This document shows, in pieces, positions 23,055 to 34,230 of a stretch of DNA of 38,995 nt. The DNA lies in contig NZ_JABKCA010000056.1 of the NCBI RefSeq assembly GCF_013166655.1, positions 1 through 38,995 on the forward strand. The letters are read 5' to 3'. The notes below the pieces were generated by a model, which saw only the letters and a list, made by a program, of their open reading frames with translations, had not been told where the DNA came from and made no database searches. The first letter of the stretch is position 1; each line of letters opens with the position of its first letter. Both the position numbers and the translations under genes were made by a program. Origin of the DNA: Lentimicrobium sp. L6 (GTDB lineage Bacteria; Bacteroidota; Bacteroidia; Bacteroidales; UBA12170).

Positions 23055-24254
23055 ATGATGAAACGTATTTATTTACTATCGATTTTCCTAATATTTGGAC
23101 TGTTTTCATTTGCTCAAACCTATAATGCTCAGGTTGAAAATGTCATCAATACTGTAAATTTAGATTCACTAATTTATCAAATGAGAAACCTCAGTGGTGA
23201 AGATGAAGTGGTGATTAATGATGAAACTACTACCATTGAGCATAGAGTGAGTAATTGGGGGAATAATTTAGCTGCTCAATATATTTATGAAACACTAGAA
23301 AATATTGGATTAGAACCCACTTGGGATTTATACAGCATGAATGGCGTAAATGTATATGCAGTGCAAGAAGGCAGTGTATACCCTGACGAATATTATATGA
23401 TATGTGCCCATTACGATGCGGTAGATTATTATTGTGCCGATGATAATGCCAGTGGTTCGGCTGCAGTGATTGAAGCGGCTCGTATTTTAAGCAGTATGGA
23501 GTTTGAATACTCCATTATCTATGCTCTTTGGGACGAAGAAGAAATTGGATTGATTGGTAGTGCGGATTATGCCGCTATAGCGGCCAGTAATGGTGATGTA
23601 ATACATTCAGTTATAAATATGGATATGATTGCTTGGGATGGTGATGAAGATATGGTTGCGGAGATACATTCTAGCTATACAGCCAATTCCAATGAATTAT
23701 CAGATTATATAGTTGAGATTGACGAGATCTATAGCTTGGCAATAGAACCAAGTGTGATCATTCCGGGTGCAGGTGGCACCGATCATTCTAGCTTTTGGAA
23801 TAATGACTATGCTGCTGTGGTGGTATCAGAAGAATATTATGGTGGAGATTTTAATCCCTATTATCATACAGCACAAGATAGAATTGCTGTATTAAACATG
23901 GATTATTTCCATGAAATGTCTAAATTATGTATTGCTAGCTTGACTTCTTTCTGCCATCCTATTTTAAATACCTCGGTAAGTGAAAACAGAAAGTCAGATG
24001 CCAAACATATACAGGTTTATCCTAATCCTGCAACTACTATAGCTCATATTACTTGTCGAACTCCTTCATCTGATTTTACTCAAGTCACTTTATTGAATAA
24101 TATGGGACAAAGTTTATTAACTCTATACCAAGGTGAGGTAATAGGAGAGAGTTTGAATCTGGAGCTTCCTCTAAATTCTTTAGCCAAGGGTATTTATTTT
24201 GTAAAAATGGAATCAACTAATGGCTCTAAAACACAGAAATTAATGGTAGAATAG
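23055..24254 (+). CDS. Secreted M28-family metallopeptidase with T9SS tail
   Basis: 399 residues; ATG at 23055, with a second ATG at 23058 equally possible. The signal peptide ends FSFAQ (residue 21). The M28 zinc aminopeptidase core shows all expected residues: H119 and D121 (CAHYDAV), the ADDNASGSA motif (D129/D130), E162/E163 (WDEEEIGLIGS), D190 (VINMDMI) and H271 (YYHTAQD). E162 is the probable general base. A T9SS C-terminal domain begins near 320 (IQVYPNPATTIAHI) and ends GIYFVKMESTNGSKTQKLMVE. The enzyme should act at or outside the cell surface as an aminopeptidase on peptides. It is a single-gene unit between two oppositely organised regions. Confidence 0.9.
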   Translation: MMKRIYLLSIFLIFGLFSFAQTYNAQVENVINTVNLDSLIYQMRNLSGEDEVVINDETTTIEHRVSNWGNNLAAQYIYETLENIGLEPTWDLYSMNGVNVYAVQEGSVYPDEYYMICAHYDAVDYYCADDNASGSAAVIEAARILSSMEFEYSIIYALWDEEEIGLIGSADYAAIAASNGDVIHSVINMDMIAWDGDEDMVAEIHSSYTANSNELSDYIVEIDEIYSLAIEPSVIIPGAGGTDHSSFWNNDYAAVVVSEEYYGGDFNPYYHTAQDRIAVLNMDYFHEMSKLCIASLTSFCHPILNTSVSENRKSDAKHIQVYPNPATTIAHITCRTPSSDFTQVTLLNNMGQSLLTLYQGEVIGESLNLELPLNSLAKGIYFVKMESTNGSKTQKLMVE

Positions 24255-24473
24255 TCAGGTTCATAGTAAAAACCTTTTATAAAAAAACATTAACATAGAG
24301 GAAGTCATTCTTTATGTTTTTATCTAAATCTTTTTTTAAGAGTAAGCGTTAGGTTATATAAAAGCTTATATATCAATGGTAAATATTGATGTGTAAGGAT
24401 TGAAAGTGATTTTAATTTCAGGCTCACACCTTTCATTAATTACATATCAGACCTTCAATATCAAAAATATTAA

Positions 24474-24530
24474 TGTTACGACTTGATAATTATAATACTT
24501 AATTCGTAATATTGTAAAATATTCGTAACA
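24474..24530 (+). promoter_or_regulatory. Promoter and operator candidate of the TetR cassette
   Basis: TTG (24483-24485), a 21-base spacer and TAATATTG (24507-24514, seven of eight to TAnnTTTG) form a promoter. ATTCGTAA is repeated at 24502-24509 and 24521-24528, either side of the -7 box. An inverted word TGTTACGA lies at 24474-24481, pairing with TCGTAACA (24523-24530). TetR proteins usually repress their own promoter through such sites. Confidence 0.5.
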
Positions 24531-24532
24531 AC

Positions 24533-25129
24533 ATGAGAAACGAAAAACATAATAAAAGTTATAAAACCCTTTTGGAAACCGCCAAACCTCTTTTCTGGAA
24601 ATACGGTGTAAAAAGAGTGAGTGTTGAAGAAATATGCAAAGAAGCCAAAGTGAGTAAGATGACCTTCTATCGCCATTTTAAAAATAAGAACGAATTGGCT
24701 TTGGAAATCATGCTGAAGATTTTTGATAAAGGATTATTAGACTATAGACAGGTGATGGCACAAGATATTCCCTTTGTACAAAAAATAGAAGAAATTATTT
24801 CCTTGAAATTTCAAAACACCCAAGATGTAAGTGAAGAATTTATCAAAGATATTTATGTGAATGGGGATATCACGACACAAAAAATGATTGAGGAATATTC
24901 TGAAACCATGCTTCTAGAATTTAAACAAGACTTGGCCAATGCTCAAAAAAAAGGATGGATCAGAAAAGACATTAAGATAGAATTCATCATGAAAATGAGA
25001 GACCAAATCACTCAATTACTCAATGATGATTCATTTTTAGCTATATATAAAACACCCCAAGAAGCCATTATGGAAGTCACTAGGTTTTTCTTTTATGGTT
25101 TGATGAATTCGGAGGAGGCCAAATCATGA
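24533..25129 (+). CDS. TetR/AcrR family regulator
   Basis: 198 residues. The N-terminal helix-turn-helix (about 15-60) is typical: KTLLETAKPLFWKYGVKRVSVEEICKEAKVSKMTFYRHFKNKNELALEIM, with recognition helix SKMTFYRHF. The rest is helical and variable, forming the dimer and ligand domain. It overlaps the outer-membrane protein gene by four bases (ATGA, 25126-25129), so it is the first gene of the transport cassette and very likely its regulator. Repeated words around its own -7 box support autoregulation. The inducing ligand is unknown; a lipid or toxic compound carried by the transporter would fit. Confidence 0.9.
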   Translation: MRNEKHNKSYKTLLETAKPLFWKYGVKRVSVEEICKEAKVSKMTFYRHFKNKNELALEIMLKIFDKGLLDYRQVMAQDIPFVQKIEEIISLKFQNTQDVSEEFIKDIYVNGDITTQKMIEEYSETMLLEFKQDLANAQKKGWIRKDIKIEFIMKMRDQITQLLNDDSFLAIYKTPQEAIMEVTRFFFYGLMNSEEAKS

Positions 25130-26265
25130 AAAAGAAGTTCCATATTATTTTAGTATTGGCCATGATAAGCATGGCTCAGCTGAGCAGTGGACAAGCCAAG
25201 TTGGAGTTCGACGGGCAGTTGTCTCTTTATGGAAACTATAATCCCGATTCGGATTTGGATGTGCTTTTAGGCGGTAGATATTTACCTGAGCTTAATCTCA
25301 AGCTACCTTTGAAAAACAGCAAAGCTTTCGACTTTCAAGCAGCAGCAAATATTTATGGAGCCTATATTACTCATCCTTTTGACTCCTCATGGAGCGATGG
25401 AAATATTAAAGCTTATCGGGCTTGGGGGCGATATACCACTGAGCAATTTGAGCTCAGAGTAGGATTGCAAAAAATAGATTTCGGAACGGCCATGTTGCTT
25501 CGTCCTTTGCAGTGGTTCGATGAAATAGATCCTCGAGATCCGCTCAAATTTACCAATGGAGTTTATGGGGTTTTGGCCCGATATTATTTCCTCAATAATG
25601 CCAATATCTGGATTTGGGGATTGTATGGTAATGAGAACCCAAGAGGATTTGAACTCATGCCTAGTCAAGAAAAGATTCCCGAGTTTGGAGGAAGGTTTCA
25701 GTATCCAATTCCTCGAGGTGAAATAGCATTGAGTTATCATCACAGAGTAGCAGAATTCACTAGTCAAGCTTCTGTAATCACTGATGAAGAGATTCCTGAA
25801 AATCGCTTAGGATTGGATGGAAAATGGGATGTAGTAGTGGGTCTTTGGTTTGAAGCTGCATATATACAAAAGACCAAGGATGTAGGCTTGTTGACTCATC
25901 AAACTTATACCACACTTGGCACCGACTATACCTTTGATTTAGGTAATGGCCTCAATGTGGTGGTGGAGCATCTGGTAGGAGCATTAGATGAAGAAGCATT
26001 TGAATTTTCTTATGTTACTAATTCTACGGCAGCCATCCTCAGTTATCCATTGACTATGTACGATAATATCAGCATCATTAATTCTTATAGCTGGGATATG
26101 AAAGCCTATTCTTTCTTTTTGAATTATGAGCATCAATTTAAAAATTTTACGGGCTATATTATGGCTTATTATAATCCGGATGTACAACAAATAACAATAG
26201 AAAATAATTTTGAAAATACTTTCACTGGGCCTGGTATCAGACTGATGGTAGTATATAATCACTAA
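25126..26265 (+). CDS. Outer-membrane beta-barrel protein of the transport cassette
   Basis: 379 residues with a signal peptide (1-23, ending SSGQ). The rest has alternating hydrophobic/polar strands with aromatic girdles, and ends in a strand with an aromatic close to the terminus (IRLMVVYNH), as expected of a beta-barrel. The segment ELRVGLQKIDFGTAMLLRPLQWFD followed by EIDPRDPLKF resembles porins of the alginate-export/DUF1302-like groups (R-x-G-x-Q-x-I-x-F-G then a DP-rich turn). It overlaps the TetR gene by ATGA and precedes the ABC genes by 190 bases, so it is likely the outer-membrane partner of the exporter. I cannot assign it to a named family with certainty. Confidence 0.75.
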   Translation: MKKKFHIILVLAMISMAQLSSGQAKLEFDGQLSLYGNYNPDSDLDVLLGGRYLPELNLKLPLKNSKAFDFQAAANIYGAYITHPFDSSWSDGNIKAYRAWGRYTTEQFELRVGLQKIDFGTAMLLRPLQWFDEIDPRDPLKFTNGVYGVLARYYFLNNANIWIWGLYGNENPRGFELMPSQEKIPEFGGRFQYPIPRGEIALSYHHRVAEFTSQASVITDEEIPENRLGLDGKWDVVVGLWFEAAYIQKTKDVGLLTHQTYTTLGTDYTFDLGNGLNVVVEHLVGALDEEAFEFSYVTNSTAAILSYPLTMYDNISIINSYSWDMKAYSFFLNYEHQFKNFTGYIMAYYNPDVQQITIENNFENTFTGPGIRLMVVYNH

Positions 26266-26301
26266 TTTGGATTTAAAAAAAGCGAGTTTCTGCGTTGCTT
26301 C

Positions 26302-26350
26302 AAAAATTCAAAATCCTCATTTACGAAGGTAAACTTCGGGATTGAATTTT
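26302..26350. repeat. Nested imperfect inverted repeat between barrel and ABC genes
   Basis: The outer arms AATTCAAAATCC (26305-26316) and GGATTGAATT (26339-26348) pair with a small bulge. Inside, CGAAG-GTAAA-CTTCG (26324-26338) is a perfect hairpin. An alternative inner pairing TTTAC/GTAAA is also possible. It is either a transcript-processing or attenuating structure that sets barrel versus ABC expression, or a mobile palindromic repeat. Confidence 0.5.
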
Positions 26351-26455
26351 ATTGCGCCTTGAACTTCATCTCTTTTAAAAATCCTTAACAGAATAGCAAT
26401 TCATTGAGTTGGATATTTATAAATAAAGTAGAAGAATCACTAAATAAAGAGCAAT

Positions 26456-27166
26456 ATGAGCAATCACATCATTTCAATCGAAAAAGTGACCAAGCGTTTC
26501 CCTGTTGGGGAAGGTGAATTTACAGCATTAAATCAAGTTGACCTACAGTTTGAAAAAGGAGAGTTTGCCGGAATTGTGGGACCCAGTGGTTCAGGAAAAA
26601 CCACTTTACTCAATATCATAGGATCTTTAGATTCACCAACGGAGGGCAAAGCCATTGTGATGGGTAAAAACATTAAAGAATTATCGCATAAAGAGTCGGC
26701 TGGTTTGAGGAATAAGCACTTGGGTTTTATCTTTCAAGTGTATAATCTATTGCCAGTTTATACTGTTTTCGAAAATGTTGAGTTTGCGTTAATTCTTCAG
26801 AATAAATCGGCTAGCGAGAGAAAAAAAGCGGTGATGGAAGCTCTAGAATGGGTGGGTTTAGAAAATATGGCCAAGAAAAAACCTGCTAAATTATCGGGTG
26901 GAGAAGGCCAGAGGGTTGCTATTGCACGTGCTATGGTCAAGAGGCCCGAAATAGTTTTGGCCGATGAACCTACTGCCAACTTGGATGCAAAAAATGCTCA
27001 TGCCATTATCCAAACCATGAAAAAGCTAAATGAGGAGCTCAATACTACCTTCTTGTTTTCTACCCACGATGAAAAAGTAATGGCCTATCTCAACAGAATG
27101 GTGCATTTAGAGGATGGCAAAGTGGTGAAAGATGAGCTCATAGAAACTAAAAATATCATATCATGA
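26456..27166 (+). CDS. ABC transporter ATPase, LolD/MacB type
   Basis: 236 residues. Walker A GPSGSGKT (42-49), Q-loop Q94 (FIFQVYNLLP), signature LSGGE (146-150, glutamate where glutamine is more common), Walker B IVLADE (166-171) and the switch histidine H204 (STHD). Length and motifs fit the LolD/MacB/FtsE group, which powers FtsX-type permeases in moving substrates out of the inner membrane or driving periplasmic work, not classical import. The gene overlaps the first permease by four bases (ATGA, 27163-27166). A soluble protein bound to the inner face of the inner membrane. Confidence 0.95.
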   Translation: MSNHIISIEKVTKRFPVGEGEFTALNQVDLQFEKGEFAGIVGPSGSGKTTLLNIIGSLDSPTEGKAIVMGKNIKELSHKESAGLRNKHLGFIFQVYNLLPVYTVFENVEFALILQNKSASERKKAVMEALEWVGLENMAKKKPAKLSGGEGQRVAIARAMVKRPEIVLADEPTANLDAKNAHAIIQTMKKLNEELNTTFLFSTHDEKVMAYLNRMVHLEDGKVVKDELIETKNIIS

Positions 27167-28320
27167 AATTAGCCTTTCAATTAGCCTATAAAAACCTTAT
27201 TGGTTCGGGTCTGAGGACTTGGCTCAATGTAGGTGTTCTTTCTTTTGCCTTCGTGATCATGATATTTTATAATGGATTGATTGACGGTTGGGATCAGCAA
27301 GCCAAACTAGATAGCATAGCTTGGGAATATGGCCATGGCCAACTTCTCGAAGAAAGCTATGACCCTTTCGATCCATTTACACTTCAAGATGGACATGCTG
27401 AGTTTGAAGCAGAAAAAGCGAGAAACCTAAGCCCTATTCTGATTCGTCAAGCTTCTATTTATCCTGATGGGAGAATGCTTTCGGTTTCATTAAAAGGAAT
27501 AGAAGCCCAGCAAGAAATACTCAAACTTCCAACAGCTGCTTTGGAAAAAAGTGATGCTTTCATTCCTGCAGTCATCGGGAAAAGGATGGCAGAATCCGCT
27601 AATTTGGAGGAGGGCGATGAGGTATTATTACGCTGGAGAGATAAAAATGGAACCTTCGATGCTGCTAATATTACTATAGTGGATATTTTTGATTGTAATG
27701 TTCCCAATGTGGATAATGGTCAGATTTGGGTTTCGATAGATAAATTATGGGAAATTACCGGAATGAGCAATCATGCTACTATGTTTATTGCTTCAGAAGA
27801 TTATGTTCATGTAGAAATGAAAGGCTGGAAATACAGTAGCCAAGAAGACCTGCTCAAAGAAATCAGCGACATCATTGCCATGAAAAAAACCAGTGGTTCC
27901 ATCATGTATGGATTGCTTTTGGCCATTGCCCTATTAGCGATTTTCGATACTCAGGTACTTTCAATTTTCCGCCGTCAGAAAGAAATTGGCACCTATATTG
28001 CTCTTGGAATGACTCGCTGGCAAGTGGTAGGCTTATTCACCGTAGAAGGAAGTATGTATAGCTTTTTAGCTACTTTGGTAGGCAGTGCTTATGGTATTCC
28101 ATTTTTCTATTATATGGCTACCAATGGCATTACCATGGCAGCCAATGCCGATGATATAGGAATTTCCATTGCCGATGTCATTTATCCAGTATTTGGCATA
28201 GGACTTATAATTGGTTCTATTATTCTAGTGGTGATATCAGCAACTATTGTCAGCTTTTTACCAGCCAGAAAAATTGCAAAAATGAACCCTGTTGATGCTT
28301 TGAAAGGAAAATTATCATGA
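27163..28320 (+). CDS. FtsX-type ABC permease 1 (LolC/E-like)
   Basis: 385 residues. One N-terminal membrane span (about 17-42, after LAYKNLIGSGLRTWLNV), then a large periplasmic domain (43-245). Three C-terminal spans follow (about 250-272, 295-325, 340-365) with the typical RRQKEIGTYIALGMTRWQVV segment between the first two, and an ending of the FLPARKIAKMNPVDALKG type. This is the four-span layout of FtsX/LolC/MacB permeases. It overlaps both the ATPase and the second permease by four bases, so the three subunits are made in step. The periplasmic domain is expected to hand substrate to a LolA-like carrier. Confidence 0.9.
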   Translation: MKLAFQLAYKNLIGSGLRTWLNVGVLSFAFVIMIFYNGLIDGWDQQAKLDSIAWEYGHGQLLEESYDPFDPFTLQDGHAEFEAEKARNLSPILIRQASIYPDGRMLSVSLKGIEAQQEILKLPTAALEKSDAFIPAVIGKRMAESANLEEGDEVLLRWRDKNGTFDAANITIVDIFDCNVPNVDNGQIWVSIDKLWEITGMSNHATMFIASEDYVHVEMKGWKYSSQEDLLKEISDIIAMKKTSGSIMYGLLLAIALLAIFDTQVLSIFRRQKEIGTYIALGMTRWQVVGLFTVEGSMYSFLATLVGSAYGIPFFYYMATNGITMAANADDIGISIADVIYPVFGIGLIIGSIILVVISATIVSFLPARKIAKMNPVDALKGKLS

Positions 28321-29591
28321 TCAAGTTTTTGTTAAAAGGAATATTAGGAGATAAGAACAGAAGTCTACTCCCCATTATCATTATCAGTATTGGTGTGATG
28401 CTCACCATATTCTTAAGTGGATATATGCGCGGCGCTATGGGCGATATGATAGAACAAAATGCTCGCTTTCAAACTGGCCATGTGAAAGTGATGAGCCGTG
28501 CTTATGCCGAAAATGAATCCCAAATGCCCAACGATTTGGCTTTACTTGGTGTAAGTGAAATCCAATCTCAATTAGAAAAAGACTTTCCGGATGTGGAATG
28601 GGTTGATCGCATTCGTTTTGGTGGATTATTGGATGTTCCTGATGCCAATGGAGAAACTAAAGGCCAAGGTCCCTCAGCAGGAATGGCCTTGGAGTTATTC
28701 TCTAAAAACACAGGAGAAGTTCAACGTTTGAATATGGAGCAATCTATAGTTAGAGGTGAGATTCCTAGCAAAAAAGGGGAGGCCTTAATAGGCGAAGATT
28801 TTGCTACAAAGCTGGATATTTCCATAGGAGATAGAATCACATTTATGGGCACCACCATGAATGGCAGCATGACTTTCGCCGACTTTATAGTGAGTGGAAC
28901 CATTCGTTTTGGTTCTGCTGCTTTAGACAGAGGAATCCTCATTATTGATATTAGTGATGCCAGATATATGCTCGATATGGAGGATGCCGCTGGAGAAATA
29001 ATAGGTTTTTTAGGTGAAGGACTTTATGTGGATGAAAAAGCAACGGAAATAGCCCAAGAGTTCAACGAGAAATATGCTGGAATTAATGATGAGTTTGCTC
29101 CACTGATGCTCCGTTTACGCGACCAAAATAACTTGGATAGCTATTTGGAATATGTGGATGGTTTTGCTTCTATGTTTGTCACTATTTTTGTGCTGGTGAT
29201 GTCTATAGTGCTTTGGAATACTGGATTACTTGGTGGACTTCGTAGGTATCAGGAATTTGGCATCCGATTGGCTTTAGGCGAAGAAAAAGGTCATATTTAC
29301 CGCAGTTTAATTTACGAAGCCATCCTCATAGGAATTATTGGTTCTATTGTTGGAACTACACTTGGTTTGCTCGGAACTTGGTATATGCAAGTGGTGGGAA
29401 TAGATATCACAGGCATGATGCAAAACTCTACCATGTTGATGCCTAATGTGCTTCGTTCAAAGTTCACTCCAGAGCTATTATATATTGGTTTTATACCTGG
29501 TTTAGTAGCCATGGTATTGGGGAATATGCTTTCAGGAATTGGGATTTATAAGCGGGAGACGGCTACTTTGTTTAAGGAGTTGGAGGTGTAA
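28317..29591 (+). CDS. FtsX-type ABC permease 2 (LolC/E-like)
   Basis: 424 residues. The N-terminal span (about 17-37) is followed by a periplasmic domain that starts FQTGHVKVMSRAYAENE, a pattern shared with LolC/LolE-like permeases. Three C-terminal spans come after about residue 285, with RRYQEFGIRLALGEEKGHIYRSLIYEAILIG between them, and the end is GIGIYKRETATLFKELEV. It is distinct in sequence from permease 1, so the transporter is a heterodimer like LolCE. It overlaps permease 1 by ATGA (28317-28320). The next gene, a LolA-like protein, follows after 118 bases holding a hairpin repeat. Confidence 0.9.
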   Translation: MIKFLLKGILGDKNRSLLPIIIISIGVMLTIFLSGYMRGAMGDMIEQNARFQTGHVKVMSRAYAENESQMPNDLALLGVSEIQSQLEKDFPDVEWVDRIRFGGLLDVPDANGETKGQGPSAGMALELFSKNTGEVQRLNMEQSIVRGEIPSKKGEALIGEDFATKLDISIGDRITFMGTTMNGSMTFADFIVSGTIRFGSAALDRGILIIDISDARYMLDMEDAAGEIIGFLGEGLYVDEKATEIAQEFNEKYAGINDEFAPLMLRLRDQNNLDSYLEYVDGFASMFVTIFVLVMSIVLWNTGLLGGLRRYQEFGIRLALGEEKGHIYRSLIYEAILIGIIGSIVGTTLGLLGTWYMQVVGIDITGMMQNSTMLMPNVLRSKFTPELLYIGFIPGLVAMVLGNMLSGIGIYKRETATLFKELEV

Positions 29592-29600
29592 AAAAACAAG

Positions 29601-29680
29601 CTTTGTGTCACCTTTGTGCGAACTTTGAGGCCCTTTGTGGTATAGCTTTTTAATAATTATTTTGAACAAAGAAGACACAA
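29601..29680. repeat. Intergenic hairpin repeat, copy 2
   Basis: TTGTGTC (29603-29609) and GACACAA (29674-29680) are inverted arms. The interior holds CCTTTGTGGTATAGCT (29632-29647), identical to 4700-4715, and ACAAAGAAGA (29666-29675), identical to 4721-4730. The interior also has three CTTTGTG/CTTTGAG-type words. It sits between the second permease and the LolA-like gene. Confidence 0.6.
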
Positions 29681-29709
29681 TGTAATAAAGTGAATAAAAA
29701 GAAAACAAC

Positions 29710-30450
29710 ATGAAAAATATAATAACAATCACCCTAATACTCATCGGAATAGGGGCTTTTGCCCAAGAAACTCCAGATGCAAAAACCATTATTGACAAAG
29801 TAGATTTCAATATGTCGTCTGACACCAAAATTACCAAATCGCAAATGGTGGTTTATGGCAGAAGAAACAGTAGAACTTTGGAGTCCATCAGTTATACCAA
29901 AGGTCATGAGGAATCCTATACCGAGTACTTAGCTCCTGAAAGAGAAAAAGGAACCAAGATGCTCAAGCTGGAAGATCGCTTGTGGATTTATACGCCCTCT
30001 ACCGATAGAACCATTCAGCTCTCGGGTCACATGTTACGCCAATCGGTGATGGGTTCGGATATGAGTTATGAAGACATGATGGAAGACCGAAAACTATTGG
30101 ATATTTATGAAGCTGAAGTAATAGGAGAGGAGGACATTAATGGAAAATCCTGTTGGGTTTTAGAACTCCATGCCAAGGTGGATGATGCTTCTTACCAAAG
30201 TCGTAAGATATGGATAGAAAAAGAACACTTTGTACCCTTGAAAGAGGAATTATTTGCTAAAAGTGGACAGTTGCTTAAGAAGACAGAGATGAGCGATGTG
30301 AGACCAGTAGATGGCCGTTGGTATCCTCATAAAATCAATTATAAAGATATGCTTAAAGATGGAAAAGGTACGGATTTCATTATTTTAGAAGTGCAGATAG
30401 ATGCGGAGATTCCTGCTCATATTTTGAGTAAAGCTGCTTTGAGGAAGTAA
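29710..30450 (+). CDS. Periplasmic LolA-like outer-membrane lipoprotein-sorting protein
   Basis: 246 residues with a signal peptide (1-19, ending AFAQ) and no lipobox, so it should be a soluble periplasmic protein. The fold signature of the LolA-like group (PF17131 type) is visible: SYTKGHEESYTEYLAPEREKGTKMLKLEDRLWIYTPSTDRTIQLSGHMLRQSVMGSDMSYEDMM (about 53-116), then RKIWIEKEHFVPLKEELF and DGRWYPHKINYKD. Such proteins form a half-barrel with a hydrophobic cavity for acyl chains. It lies 118 bases after the second LolCE-like permease. With the ABC genes and barrel it suggests a path from inner membrane to outer membrane for a lipid or lipidated cargo. Confidence 0.9.
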   Translation: MKNIITITLILIGIGAFAQETPDAKTIIDKVDFNMSSDTKITKSQMVVYGRRNSRTLESISYTKGHEESYTEYLAPEREKGTKMLKLEDRLWIYTPSTDRTIQLSGHMLRQSVMGSDMSYEDMMEDRKLLDIYEAEVIGEEDINGKSCWVLELHAKVDDASYQSRKIWIEKEHFVPLKEELFAKSGQLLKKTEMSDVRPVDGRWYPHKINYKDMLKDGKGTDFIILEVQIDAEIPAHILSKAALRK

Positions 30451-30609: not shown

Positions 30610-33600
30610 ATGAAACGCATATTTCTACTTTTTTTCTTATTGATGACTATTTATTGTTTTCCCCAATCCGAAATTTGGGGAATTAAACAACAGGCAGGAA
30701 AGCATAATGGAGGATTTTTATATAGTATTGATAGCGCGACTAATAAAATTATTGAGCATCAGTATTTTGCCAACCCCAAAGCAGATTCTAGAAAATCTGG
30801 AATATTATATGATTCCACAACAAAATGCATGTTCGGTGCTTGTAATCAAATATTGTATAAATACGATTTAGTAAACAGAACTATTGAATCAAAAATATTA
30901 GAAGAAGAAGTATATGGTAGCTTTGTGAAAGCATCAAATGGCAACTTGTATATTCTATCAAAGAATGGATTGATAAAGGTAAATCCAAGAGATTTAAGCA
31001 TGGAGCTGGTAGGGCAATTCTATGGTCAATTTATTTTGCCTGATTCAACCATGTTTTTTGAGACAGAAGTTGGAACTTCATATGGATTATGTGAGGTTTC
31101 GGAGGACCATTATATTGTGGCTAATTATACAGAAGATAATTCCTATCATTGGAAGCATACTTTTTTACATTCAATAAATACAGCAACCGATTCCATTGAG
31201 TTGATATATCGTACTTCTTTTTATCCCGAAAATGAATCTCTTATCCCTTTAGGAAATTTCTACCCACATAATGGCTTACTATATGCCTTATTTTCTATGA
31301 ATGGTGAAATTGGGCTTTATTCTTTAAATCCTCTAAACCTGGAGTTTTCAAATGTTCATGTTTTTGATGAATTAAGAGCATATCAAAACACTCTGCCCTA
31401 TATTATCTCTTCTCAAGGGAAAATATATGTAAAAACGCGAAACACTTCAGGTAATCAAACCCTTCTATGTGAGTGTGTTATTGACACAGAAGAGTTTAAA
31501 ATCTTGTCAGAAATACCTCTGAACTTTAACCATAACCGAATGATAACAGATGAAAATAATGATCTTTATCTCCTATTAGATATTTCTGAAGATTGGTTAA
31601 TAAAAACAGCATTTTATCAATATAATTTTGAAACCAGTCAGCTTGATTCCTTGTTTTTTATTAGTGAAAGATATTTCAATACTTCCATATATGATGAGTT
31701 TGGTTCGCTAGTTTTATTTAATAATGGGATTATTTCTTTTCTAGATAATAACCAAGATTTAGATTATCAAATTGTATCCTATAATACTGACCAATTGAAA
31801 ATTGACACTATTGCATACCTCCAGAATTCCTTCAATTTTACAGATTCACTAATCTTGCCTGCAAGTTTTTGCGAAGCTGAAAACGGCAATTTAATGCTAC
31901 TAAATAATAGAAAGATCAGAATGCTTTCATGGTATTATAAGTACTTTTTCAGTTTCACTGAATATAATCCACAAACAAAAGAACTCATAAGATCCGATGA
32001 GTTGGAATTATCTAGTTATTGTGAAAACCCTCAAATCTATAAAATGAGTGATGAGGAATATTGTATTACCTGCAATCAGGACAGTGTCATCCTCAAATAT
32101 CATTGGTCCGAAAATGAAATCACCAATATTGAAACACCTTTTTCTGCTGAATGGATCAAAGAAAAAGACAATAGTTTTATTGGGACTTCTGAAGACACTA
32201 CAATATATAGGTTTAATTATCATTCAGAGCAATTTGAAAAACTTTACAAGCCCGATTCTGATACAAGTTTTGACTTGGCATGCATAGACAAGGAAAACAG
32301 ATTGTTCATTTATTCTGAGTCAATTGAGCAATTCTTATGCCTTGATTTAAACACAAACGAAATAAGTTCTGTGAATCAATTAAACGCGCTTATTGAACAA
32401 GTAAATTATTATCGAATTGAAAAGGTTTTCTCTGAAGGAGCGTATTTGTTTTTTGTTGTTTACATATCATCACCCTATGCTTACAAGCTTTTTAGATACC
32501 ATCTTCCAAGTCATGAATTTAAGCTTATCAATATTGAAGAAAATGAAGATTTATCCTTCTTTCAGTTTATTGAAAACTATACTAATGATGGTATTTTTAT
32601 TGCAAGTCTAGATATAGATAATAATACTTCTGGCTATTTACAATCTTTAGCCAATAATAGTGATTCCTCAATAATGCTTGATGCCTTCGAGAACAAAACA
32701 TCAGCATATGAAAATGTATATGAGTCCTATTTGAGATTAATAAAAACCAAGAAAAAACCTATTCACCGATGGATTGGTGGCTTAAGCGAGGATTGGTATG
32801 AATCAGGAAACTGGTCTAATGCAAGTTTACCAACTGAAGGCAGCTCAGTGAATATTATGAATAATGCAATGTTTTACCCAGTTATTGATTCAACAATCAA
32901 AATTCGAAACTTATATATTTATAATGATGCTAAAATCCTATTAGAGAAAAAAGCTGAAATGATGGTTTCTGATGTTCTTAAAAACCATGGAACAATAAAT
33001 ATGACAGCCAACAATCACCAAAGAAGCTCACTAATAGTAGAAGGAGAATTCATACAAAAAGGAGTACAAAAGTATATCTTTACAGCTGATTCAATAAATA
33101 GTAAAATCCTGGCCAGTCCGATGAGGGCAGTAGAAAAATATGTCCAGCCATCTTACTCTGAGGCAGCTTTTAATGAAACCAATTTTGCATTTAGTGGAAT
33201 CCAGTTTTATCCTCATTTTAGCGAAACATGTCAAGCGCTACAATATACTTGCCAGGATACTTTGCTGGAGTTTAAAGGAAGTTTTAATCATGGTAAACAG
33301 AACTTACGAATCCCCATACTTTCTGAACCGGAATTATATCCATTATCCAACCCTTATCCCAGTTCCTTCAACTGGAATAAAACTCAAACTACTACCTTAA
33401 CTCATCAGGCTTGCTATTTCTTTAATGAAGAGGAAAACACCATTTCAGCGACTGTTGATGGCATTGGAAACCATCCTCCATTTATTCGTCCTTTGGAAGT
33501 ATTTTGGGTTTATGGAAATGGAGAGGAGTCTATTCAAATTGACCAATCTGCTTTGATGCATGAACAGGATTTCGAAGAAGAAATCCCCAATAGAAAGGTA

Positions 33601-34230
33601 TTGAGTTTACAAGTATGTGGAGCAAAGAAGACAAGCGAAACCCTCATTGCTTTTAATGATTTGGCCAGCCCTGATTACGACCCACAATTGGATGCTTTTA
33701 AGTTCATCAAAAACGAAAGTTATCCTCATATTTTCACAAAATCAGATGATGAGCTATTGATGATTAACCAGCATCCCGATACCACCATGATGAACCTGTT
33801 TGTTCAAATGGGAACAGATGGAAATATGAACATAAAACTATCAGAAAATCATGGCTTCGATTTTTTGGTTTTAGAAGATTTAATCTGGCATACCAGAACC
33901 GATTTATTAGAAGATGATTACCAATTTGACTATTTCACTTCCGATGGATATTATCCCTTTAAATTATACTTTAAGTCTTGGGTTTTGGAGCCCTTAGAGG
34001 AGGCTGACATTCAAATGTATTACTATCCAGAGTATTTAGTAGTAAAGAGCAGAAAACAAGTAAAGCAAGCCGACATCATCTTTTATGATTTGGCAGGTCG
34101 AGTGGTTCTTGAGTTTAGCGAGCAAAACTTCTTCTATATCGAAAAACCCATTCAAATTCCTGCTGGCCATTATATTGTACAATTGCGCAGTGGCGATTTG
34201 GTGATAAATGAGAAAGTTTTGGTGAGGTAG
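30610..34230 (+). CDS. Large T9SS-secreted protein of unknown function
   Basis: 1206 residues with a signal peptide (1-19, ending CFPQ). Residues 20-700 are strand-rich with recurrent phrases such as NGNLYILSKNGLIKVNP and GILYDSTTKCMFGACNQILYKYDL. That suggests a beta-propeller, but no named repeat family is clear. From about 718 the module HRWIGGLSEDWYESGNWSNASLP begins, then strand repeats, an ASPMRAVEKY segment and PLSNPYPSSFNW (about 910-921). A T9SS C-terminal domain closes it (about 1130-1206: ADIIFYDLAGRVVLEFS ... GHYIVQLRSGDLVINEKVLVR). The second half matches the second half of the FG-GAP protein at 6841-10623 in order and motif. It is a single gene between the transport cassette and a kinase gene. 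Confidence 0.8.
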   Translation: MKRIFLLFFLLMTIYCFPQSEIWGIKQQAGKHNGGFLYSIDSATNKIIEHQYFANPKADSRKSGILYDSTTKCMFGACNQILYKYDLVNRTIESKILEEEVYGSFVKASNGNLYILSKNGLIKVNPRDLSMELVGQFYGQFILPDSTMFFETEVGTSYGLCEVSEDHYIVANYTEDNSYHWKHTFLHSINTATDSIELIYRTSFYPENESLIPLGNFYPHNGLLYALFSMNGEIGLYSLNPLNLEFSNVHVFDELRAYQNTLPYIISSQGKIYVKTRNTSGNQTLLCECVIDTEEFKILSEIPLNFNHNRMITDENNDLYLLLDISEDWLIKTAFYQYNFETSQLDSLFFISERYFNTSIYDEFGSLVLFNNGIISFLDNNQDLDYQIVSYNTDQLKIDTIAYLQNSFNFTDSLILPASFCEAENGNLMLLNNRKIRMLSWYYKYFFSFTEYNPQTKELIRSDELELSSYCENPQIYKMSDEEYCITCNQDSVILKYHWSENEITNIETPFSAEWIKEKDNSFIGTSEDTTIYRFNYHSEQFEKLYKPDSDTSFDLACIDKENRLFIYSESIEQFLCLDLNTNEISSVNQLNALIEQVNYYRIEKVFSEGAYLFFVVYISSPYAYKLFRYHLPSHEFKLINIEENEDLSFFQFIENYTNDGIFIASLDIDNNTSGYLQSLANNSDSSIMLDAFENKTSAYENVYESYLRLIKTKKKPIHRWIGGLSEDWYESGNWSNASLPTEGSSVNIMNNAMFYPVIDSTIKIRNLYIYNDAKILLEKKAEMMVSDVLKNHGTINMTANNHQRSSLIVEGEFIQKGVQKYIFTADSINSKILASPMRAVEKYVQPSYSEAAFNETNFAFSGIQFYPHFSETCQALQYTCQDTLLEFKGSFNHGKQNLRIPILSEPELYPLSNPYPSSFNWNKTQTTTLTHQACYFFNEEENTISATVDGIGNHPPFIRPLEVFWVYGNGEESIQIDQSALMHEQDFEEEIPNRKVLSLQVCGAKKTSETLIAFNDLASPDYDPQLDAFKFIKNESYPHIFTKSDDELLMINQHPDTTMMNLFVQMGTDGNMNIKLSENHGFDFLVLEDLIWHTRTDLLEDDYQFDYFTSDGYYPFKLYFKSWVLEPLEEADIQMYYYPEYLVVKSRKQVKQADIIFYDLAGRVVLEFSEQNFFYIEKPIQIPAGHYIVQLRSGDLVINEKVLVR

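Follow-up and report, generated by a model that had tools for sequence, protein, structure and literature searches.

A TetR-headed gene set of Lentimicrobium sp. L6 as a candidate exporter with a LolA3-type carrier and its own outer-membrane barrel

What task is served by a LolD-like ATPase, two different FtsX-type permeases, a soluble LolA-like protein, an outer-membrane beta-barrel and a TetR-family regulator when all of them are encoded in one gene set? This question is raised by a locus of Lentimicrobium sp. L6. The window of this study is a whole stretch of 38,995 nucleotides (RefSeq assembly GCF_013166655.1, contig NZ_JABKCA010000056.1, positions 1 to 38,995 of the forward strand), which is contig C56 of genome G000 in our numbering (assembly 5.14 Mb, 195 contigs). 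A sequence-only reading of the locus had proposed a ligand-regulated route for a lipid or lipidated cargo to the outer membrane, with the barrel in place of LolB. That picture is right in outline; its lipoprotein and LolB-substitute parts are unsupported. The operon is understood here, with a probability of roughly 0.6, as a TetR-regulated, shuttle-type exporter of hydrophobic or amphipathic cargo, equipped with a carrier and a barrel of its own.

In the proposed mechanism, the two permeases and the ATPase would constitute a type VII ATP-binding cassette (ABC) machine that lifts the cargo from the inner membrane, the outward direction being suggested by the ABC family to which they belong. The cargo would be handed to the LolA-like carrier, which has a LolA fold by model and may cross the periplasm, and from the carrier it would pass to the 18-stranded barrel and thence into or through the outer membrane. 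The TetR regulator, encoded by the first gene, probably represses the operon until the cargo or a signal appears, as the conserved repeats upstream would suggest. The hydrophobic or amphipathic nature of the cargo is proposed because of the carrier fold and the precedent of AmeABCD. The set is best read as the ABC-driven counterpart of exporters driven by resistance-nodulation-division (RND) pumps, such as AmeABCD, and as separate from the housekeeping Lol pathway.

Conservation of the six-gene set

The six genes (Table 1) lie on the + strand and overlap by 4 bases at three junctions (TetR/barrel, ATPase/permease 1 and permease 1/permease 2). The gap between the barrel and ATPase genes is 190 bases and that between the permease 2 and LolA-like genes is 118 bases; the directional set joined by overlaps and short gaps was therefore present as described, with two gaps exceeding 100 bases. 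Relatives were collected in two scans. Short barrel peptides were run against one genome per species (84,980 species), a procedure that therefore favours close relatives, and gave 23 loci. A barrel profile run against 395 Bacteroidota genomes gave 14 matches, 12 of them strong (the window's own included) and two weak: one in G011 (E 3e-4), where the matched barrel is a member of a second family (L049), and one in G255 (E 9e-4). The 23 loci from the peptide scan and 11 from the profile search make up 34 loci of the window's type (type 1) besides the window.

The ATPase gene was found 3' of the barrel gene, on the same strand and within 2 kb, in 32 of the 34 relatives. The two exceptions were L025, in which a mere 146 bases of contig follow the barrel, and L026, in which the genes run permease 2, LolA-like gene, barrel. 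A LolA-like gene accompanied the barrel in 30 of the 34, downstream in 28 and upstream in L026 and L052; the four without it were L016 and three loci in which the sequence breaks off (L005, L009 and L025). Moreover, in each of the 11 Bacteroidota genomes other than the window's that matched the barrel profile strongly, PF17131, the Pfam family of the carrier, was encoded within 8 kb on the same strand of the same contig. When tiled open reading frames (ORFs) of at least 110 aa from the 34 loci were clustered, four clusters outside the set occurred in 3 or 4 loci, two of which were identified as an MscS channel and a glutamine amidotransferase, and none recurred in more than 4. Given these counts for the ATPase, the LolA-like gene and the outside clusters, the set is held together beyond chance, and it is widely conserved; the barrel and LolA-like genes do stand beside the ABC genes in relatives, as the sequence-only reading needed. 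The 23 record titles named Bacteroidota, Acidobacteria, Aminicenantes, Neomarinimicrobiota and one Pseudomonadota (L023), mostly as metagenome-assembled genomes. Culturable hosts of the operon include Flexithrix dorotheae DSM 6795 (L013) and Winogradskyella bathintestinalis (L007). In three loci (L007, L010 and L055) the set was seen to contain two permease 1 genes, and a mechanosensitive channel gene lay downstream of the carrier in L007, with relatives of that gene in L010 and L055.

Pairwise distances of five conserved proteins (barrel, carrier, ATPase and both permeases) in 25 sequences correlated at 0.62-0.86 (permuted maximum 0.40), a pattern that inheritance as a single unit would produce. 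When 28 permeases were placed on a tree, five permease 1 rows formed one clade and five permease 2 rows another (each 100/100), and both clades, each holding the window and four relatives, united Bacteroidota, Acidobacteriota and Aminicenantes rows. Only the unity of these two groups of rows was used from this tree, in which the placement of the genome's two lolCE-like rows is unsure because they join as long branches.

Furthermore, a TetR-like gene was present upstream of the barrel in 21 of the 34 relatives, and a conserved stretch reaches into the start of the window's TetR gene. Between the window and its close relative L005 (barrel 86% identical), 58 of 67 columns were identical at 24470-24536, which spans the TetR start codon, compared with 89 of 246 farther upstream. 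This stretch holds three copies of a half-site, TGTTACGA at 24474-24481, TTCGTAA at 24503-24509 and TTCGTAAC at 24522-24529; one copy is inverted and two are direct, spaced 19 bases. With as many as 3 mismatches allowed, the genome of the window contains the 27-base core of the stretch a single time, and the core was found exactly in 2 of the 107 fetched loci, L005 and L037, the latter being the window's own copy. The conserved repeats fit a candidate TetR operator heading the operon, just 5' of the regulator gene that stands first, which supports the regulatory part of the sequence-only reading.

Predicted folds and the Lol pathway

An AlphaFold2 model of the barrel, built on a 23-sequence alignment, had 18 strands and a mean predicted local distance difference test score (pLDDT) of 84.7. 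In comparisons with VIA-align the model was placed nearest to Occ/OprD pores (Z 22-24, root-mean-square deviation (rmsd) 2.9-3.9, 287-306 residues), with the exporter AlgE at Z of about 22; Foldseek's own ranking put OmpC/OmpF-type porins first, at a template-modelling score of about 0.5 and an rmsd of about 8. No Omp85 chain was found among the 50 matches listed for the model, and a search of Pfam and NCBIfam with the barrel sequence gave no family up to E 0.05. Conservation was concentrated at residues 109-145, which run from strand 5 into the loop that precedes strand 6 and where the mean top-residue fraction was 0.79 (0.49 before and 0.56 after); the best-conserved 31 residues were 138-168.

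The LolA-like character that had been read from the carrier sequence was borne out by its model, which showed a LolA fold (pLDDT 89.7). In VIA-align the carrier model matched 4z48, 3buu, 3bk5 and 9tp6 (Porphyromonas gingivalis LolA3) at Z 25-27, the last at Z 25.5 and 27% identity; next came P. gingivalis LolB at Z 14.6, and true LolA proteins reached Z 14 or less. The carrier lies above the Pfam cut-off of PF17131 and has the fold of that family, and by its model it is a LolA3/DUF1329-type protein. Its best-conserved stretch was 96-126, which includes MGSDMSYEDM.

Lol sorting by LolCDE, LolA and LolB resembles the window set in its separate ATPase, two different permeases and LolA-fold carrier. 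However, the window set has a barrel, and no LolB was recognised among its six genes, although no LolB search was made. All of its Lol-like members scored below the NCBIfam cut-offs: the ATPase reached 250 bits against the 307.75 bits of the LolD equivalog, the permeases 51.6 and 33.1 bits against 362.45 for LolCE, and the carrier 25.3 bits against 100 for Bacteroidota LolA1. In the same genome, one LolA1 above cut-off (183.6 bits, cut-off 100) was encoded on contig C16, and two permeases nearer to LolCE were encoded on contigs C11 and C12 (222 and 184 bits, compared with 50 and 33 for those of the window, but themselves below the 362 cut-off). The LolD and LolCE cut-offs may suit other phyla, as even the lolCE permeases that score best in this genome fall short of theirs. 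Housekeeping Lol was rejected as the identity of the operon because LolA1 and better lolCE-like permeases lie elsewhere in the genome.

Carrier and barrel with different engines

The same genome harbors a second operon on contig C88 (L028, 1962-8021), in which a TetR gene, a PF17131 carrier, two FtsX permeases, an ATPase and a barrel, the same kinds of parts as in the window set, stand in another gene order. PF17131 was above cut-off in 156 of the 395 sampled Bacteroidota genomes. Forty PF17131 loci were hand-picked down the score order among the matches listed, and this sample is biased to strong matches; one of them, L080, is a type-1 locus already within the 34. The C88 operon type was the commonest among these 40. 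At least two FtsX permeases and an ATPase were found on the same strand within 6 kb in 28 loci, of which 27 had a related barrel by either of two barrel profiles, the miss (L076) ending inside the ATPase gene. Nine loci had an MMPL/RND pump, six of them with a related barrel (not L066, L086 and L096). The remaining three, L101, L102 and L103, had neither engine, and no ABC, RND or barrel gene was found near their carriers; the gene next to the L101 carrier encodes a universal stress protein.

Profile comparison demonstrated that the barrels of these loci are related. With hhalign E-values that refer to single comparisons, the window barrel family matched the C88-type barrels (97.4%, E 1e-11) and seven RND-locus barrels (96.2%, E 2e-9), and the C88-type barrels matched the RND-locus barrels at E 7e-31. 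The C88 barrel alone, as a single sequence, matched 37 columns of profile A1, and longer matches needed profiles on both sides. When 2,080 ORFs from 103 loci were searched with a profile of the C88-type barrels (30 seeds, among them no type-1 barrel and one barrel of RND locus L100), the barrel of 30 of the 34 type-1 loci was recovered (E 4e-15 to 1e-4). Beyond these and its seeds, the profile matched five barrels of RND loci (E 1e-21 to 5e-13), an incomplete ORF on the margin of the RND locus L086 (1e-15), the truncated barrel of the second operon in L054 (1e-10) and, outside the set, one ORF of L064 (E 4e-4). It matched nothing up to E 10 in the Porin_O_P ORFs that served as a small control. 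Moreover, three of five RND-locus barrels scanned exceeded the DUF1302 cut-off (L064, L073 and L082), whereas L066 and L100 did not.

In L100 (3066-8523), an MMPL pump, a barrel of the C88 family (a profile seed), a carrier and a TetR gene stand together on one strand, which is the most direct sign of an exchangeable engine. In a quick tree of 71 carriers, with branch support from the Shimodaira-Hasegawa approximate likelihood ratio test alone, all 30 type-1 carriers, the window's included, formed one clade (98). The four labels (two ABC types, RND and neither) needed 3 changes on this tree, the minimum possible, compared with a mean of 31 in label shuffles, none of which in 200 was as low as 3; when each label was counted by itself, 2 changes were needed for the second ABC type and likewise 2 for RND. 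Because ABC and RND loci share both carrier and barrel, these two look like an outer module that may be driven by either engine. We give an even chance to the wider reading in which a soluble carrier of the LolA3 type and a barrel akin to DUF1302 make up the portable outer half of a general class of shuttle exporters. This half would be joined to one of at least two unrelated engines, RND or LolCDE-type ABC, the latter in two or three separate lineages. Such operons would be where PF17131 is chiefly at home in Bacteroidota, and the purpose of LolA3 proteins would be to move hydrophobic molecules out across the envelope with no continuous tunnel.

Further arrangements were observed among these loci. 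L081 (6288-11538) and L085 (543-5720) hold a third ABC version, with carriers that are sister to the window type on the carrier tree and a barrel of the second type's family, and L054 (G200:C255, 1-9714) carries the window's and the second operon types back to back, both on the - strand. A five-gene block upstream of the second operon type in 9 of 28 loci encodes histidine biosynthesis, and since that is its function the block was rejected as a clue to the cargo and taken as clade synteny.

Cargo, direction and published relatives

AmeABCD of Castellaniella defragrans is described as an RND pump with a DUF1302 barrel and a DUF1329/LolA-superfamily protein, the deletion of which lowered monoterpene tolerance and raised Nile Red accumulation (PMC6394551). 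It shares with the window set a barrel, a soluble LolA-superfamily protein and an energised inner-membrane transporter in a single gene set, and the window barrel family is akin by profile comparison to the Bacteroidota RND-locus barrels, some of which match DUF1302. It is energised by an RND (HAE3/MMPL) pump, the place of which is taken in the window set by three LolCDE-type ABC genes, with a TetR gene besides, and it has an extra periplasmic protein, AmeC; the window's six genes have other identities, and AmeC itself was not searched for. The Borrelia cluster BBJ23-BBJ29 likewise unites an ATPase, an FtsX-type permease, a LolA-like protein and an outer-membrane barrel, together with two tetratricopeptide repeat (TPR) proteins (PMC13078400). 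Its one permease, modelled as a homodimer, contrasts with the two of the window set, and its barrel is modelled with an Omp85-type domain, the window barrel model being nearest Occ/OprD and AlgE; no TPR family was detected up to E 0.05 in the six window genes or their two neighbours. MacAB-TolC is similar in its FtsX/MacB-type permease and ATPase, but the window ATPase is a separate protein, and a family scan of the six genes and their two neighbours found no adaptor and no TolC.

The carrier's nearest studied relatives are LolA3 proteins. P. gingivalis LolA3 (PDB 9tp6), which has the same fold as the window carrier and, judging from annotations, is probably the carrier of that species' RND operon, is reported to bind LolB weakly and to bind A22 at 66 uM, but not polymyxin, and is described as being without the arginine of LolA and the leucine of LolB (PMC13103446). 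Gliding and amylase secretion were described as intact after deletion of LolA3 in Flavobacterium johnsoniae (PMC11885536). A DUF1302/DUF1329 pair of Pseudomonas putida was predicted to interact and was needed for growth on Tween 20 (PMC10866462). Strong induction under iron or hemin limitation in P. gingivalis, and under iron limitation in Prevotella intermedia, was reported for operons in which a TetR gene is combined with genes for an MMPL transporter and for an 'outer membrane lipoprotein-sorting protein' (PMC10434189, PMC10470040). The bile-salt pump BT2793-2795, described as a tripartite RND pump, was dropped as a relative, and the system of PMC10197871, a TolC operon by its description, was not relevant. 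No description of this six-gene ABC set in Bacteroidota was found among the open-access papers searched, most subscription journals lying outside the search. The statement that such Bacteroidota routes are poorly described therefore fits the literature searched, with the reservation that close relatives are in print, namely the RND-driven AmeABCD and Borrelia BBJ23-BBJ29.

Other interpretations of the same parts were considered. A strict toxic-compound efflux system, in which TetR senses a foreign hydrophobic compound that the machine expels, is a narrower form of the shuttle-type exporter and, while a real contender, an unlikely one in that strict form. The TetR-like gene that heads the operon in the 21 relatives noted above, the AmeABCD precedent (PMC6394551) and the patchy spread of the set, with a strong barrel match in 12 of 395 Bacteroidota genomes (the window's own included), are in its favour, but the adaptor or TolC-like tunnel is lacking among the six genes and two neighbours, and the reported induction of the Porphyromonas and Prevotella RND relatives when iron or hemin is scarce (PMC10434189, PMC10470040) speaks for a physiological role. 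We judge improbable, beyond that, a dedicated Lol-like lipoprotein route in which the barrel serves as surface exporter or as an insertase replacing LolB, the stronger version of the sequence-only reading. It would agree with LolD as the best match of the ATPase and with the LolA fold of the carrier, and the authors of the Borrelia study raised a similar reading for BBJ23-BBJ29 (PMC13078400). However, the carrier is of the LolA3/DUF1329 kind and below the LolA1 cut-off (25 against 100 bits), its P. gingivalis relative is without the two Lol residues and binds LolB weakly (PMC13103446), no neighbour gene recurs beyond 4 of the 34 loci, and the barrel fold is nearest Occ/OprD and AlgE. The LolB-like role suggested for the barrel thus finds no support in a model that resembles pores and exporters, and neither does a specifically lipid or lipidated cargo in a carrier of this kind.

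Least probable of all is uptake or lipid recycling, by which the barrel would admit a hydrophobic nutrient and the carrier would move cargo inward. The barrel model is nearest to Occ/OprD pores, and these are uptake channels. The exporter AlgE, however, scores nearly as high as Occ. Outward extraction is known for FtsX/MacB-type ABC machines and import is not. The requirement of the P. putida pair for growth on Tween 20 (PMC10866462) would accord with uptake, but a type VII ABC machine has been suggested to extract hydrophobic molecules, which again is outward (PMC12646458).

Several observations weigh against the shuttle-type exporter or its wider form. The clustering of the 34 neighbourhoods revealed no cargo gene. 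A TetR gene was missing or unrecognised in 13 of the 34 loci; the available upstream sequence exceeds 1.5 kb in 8 of these and is shorter than 600 bases in the other 5. In L016 (10004-12155) TetR, barrel and ATPase are kept and permease 2 and carrier are lost, the set breaking off after residue 45 of permease 1 despite 10 kb of further sequence. The C88-type profile missed four of the 34 type-1 loci, namely L021, L024, L027 and L062, the last two of which have partial genes. A DUF1302 Pfam match was found in none of 23 type-1 barrels up to E 0.1, so that their kinship is by profile comparison only, and in none of 21 barrels of the second type up to the same E-value. In addition, the AmeABCD mutant and wild type were described as nearly identical in real-time Nile Red efflux (PMC6394551).

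If the shuttle-type exporter is correct, the LolA3 proteins, for which a structure has been solved and a mutant made, would receive a testable job. Gram-negative bacteria may then export hydrophobic cargo by a soluble carrier and a dedicated barrel, besides tunnels, and one carrier-barrel pair coupled to two unrelated engines would provide a clear example of modules being reused in envelope transport. The share of sampled genomes with PF17131 means that the question touches much of a major phylum.

Table 1. Positions of the gene set, its candidate control region and its flanks in the window
Feature	Position	Strand	Remarks
M28 peptidase (5' flank)	23055-24254		Por_Secre_tail sorting domain
Candidate TetR operator and promoter	24470-24536	+	conserved stretch reaching into TetR start
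TetR-family regulator, 198 aa	24533-25129	+	TetR_N E 1.9e-14 (Pfam)
Outer-membrane beta-barrel, 379 aa	25126-26265	+	18 predicted strands; loop kept between strands 5 and 6
LolD/MacB-type ATPase, 236 aa	26456-27166	+	ABC_tran E 7e-36; top NCBIfam match LolD, 250 bits
FtsX-type permease 1, 385 aa	27163-28320	+	FtsX E 1.4e-17; 4 hydrophobic segments (hydropathy)
FtsX/MacB_PCD permease 2, 424 aa	28317-29591	+	FtsX E 8e-17; MacB_PCD E 2e-11; 4 hydrophobic regions (hydropathy; overlapping segments merged by eye)
LolA-like periplasmic carrier, 246 aa	29710-30450	+	PF17131, 199 bits (cut-off 30); N-terminal hydrophobic helix
1206-residue protein (3' flank)	30610-34230		no Pfam family above its cut-off

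The two longer gaps of the set were compared with the rest of the genome. The 118-base gap had no repeat copy elsewhere in this check. Within the 190-base gap between barrel and ATPase, an 86-base intergenic element (26278-26363) has an 80% identical copy at C2:64105-64190 of the same genome, and two further 29-base matches to this gap were found elsewhere.

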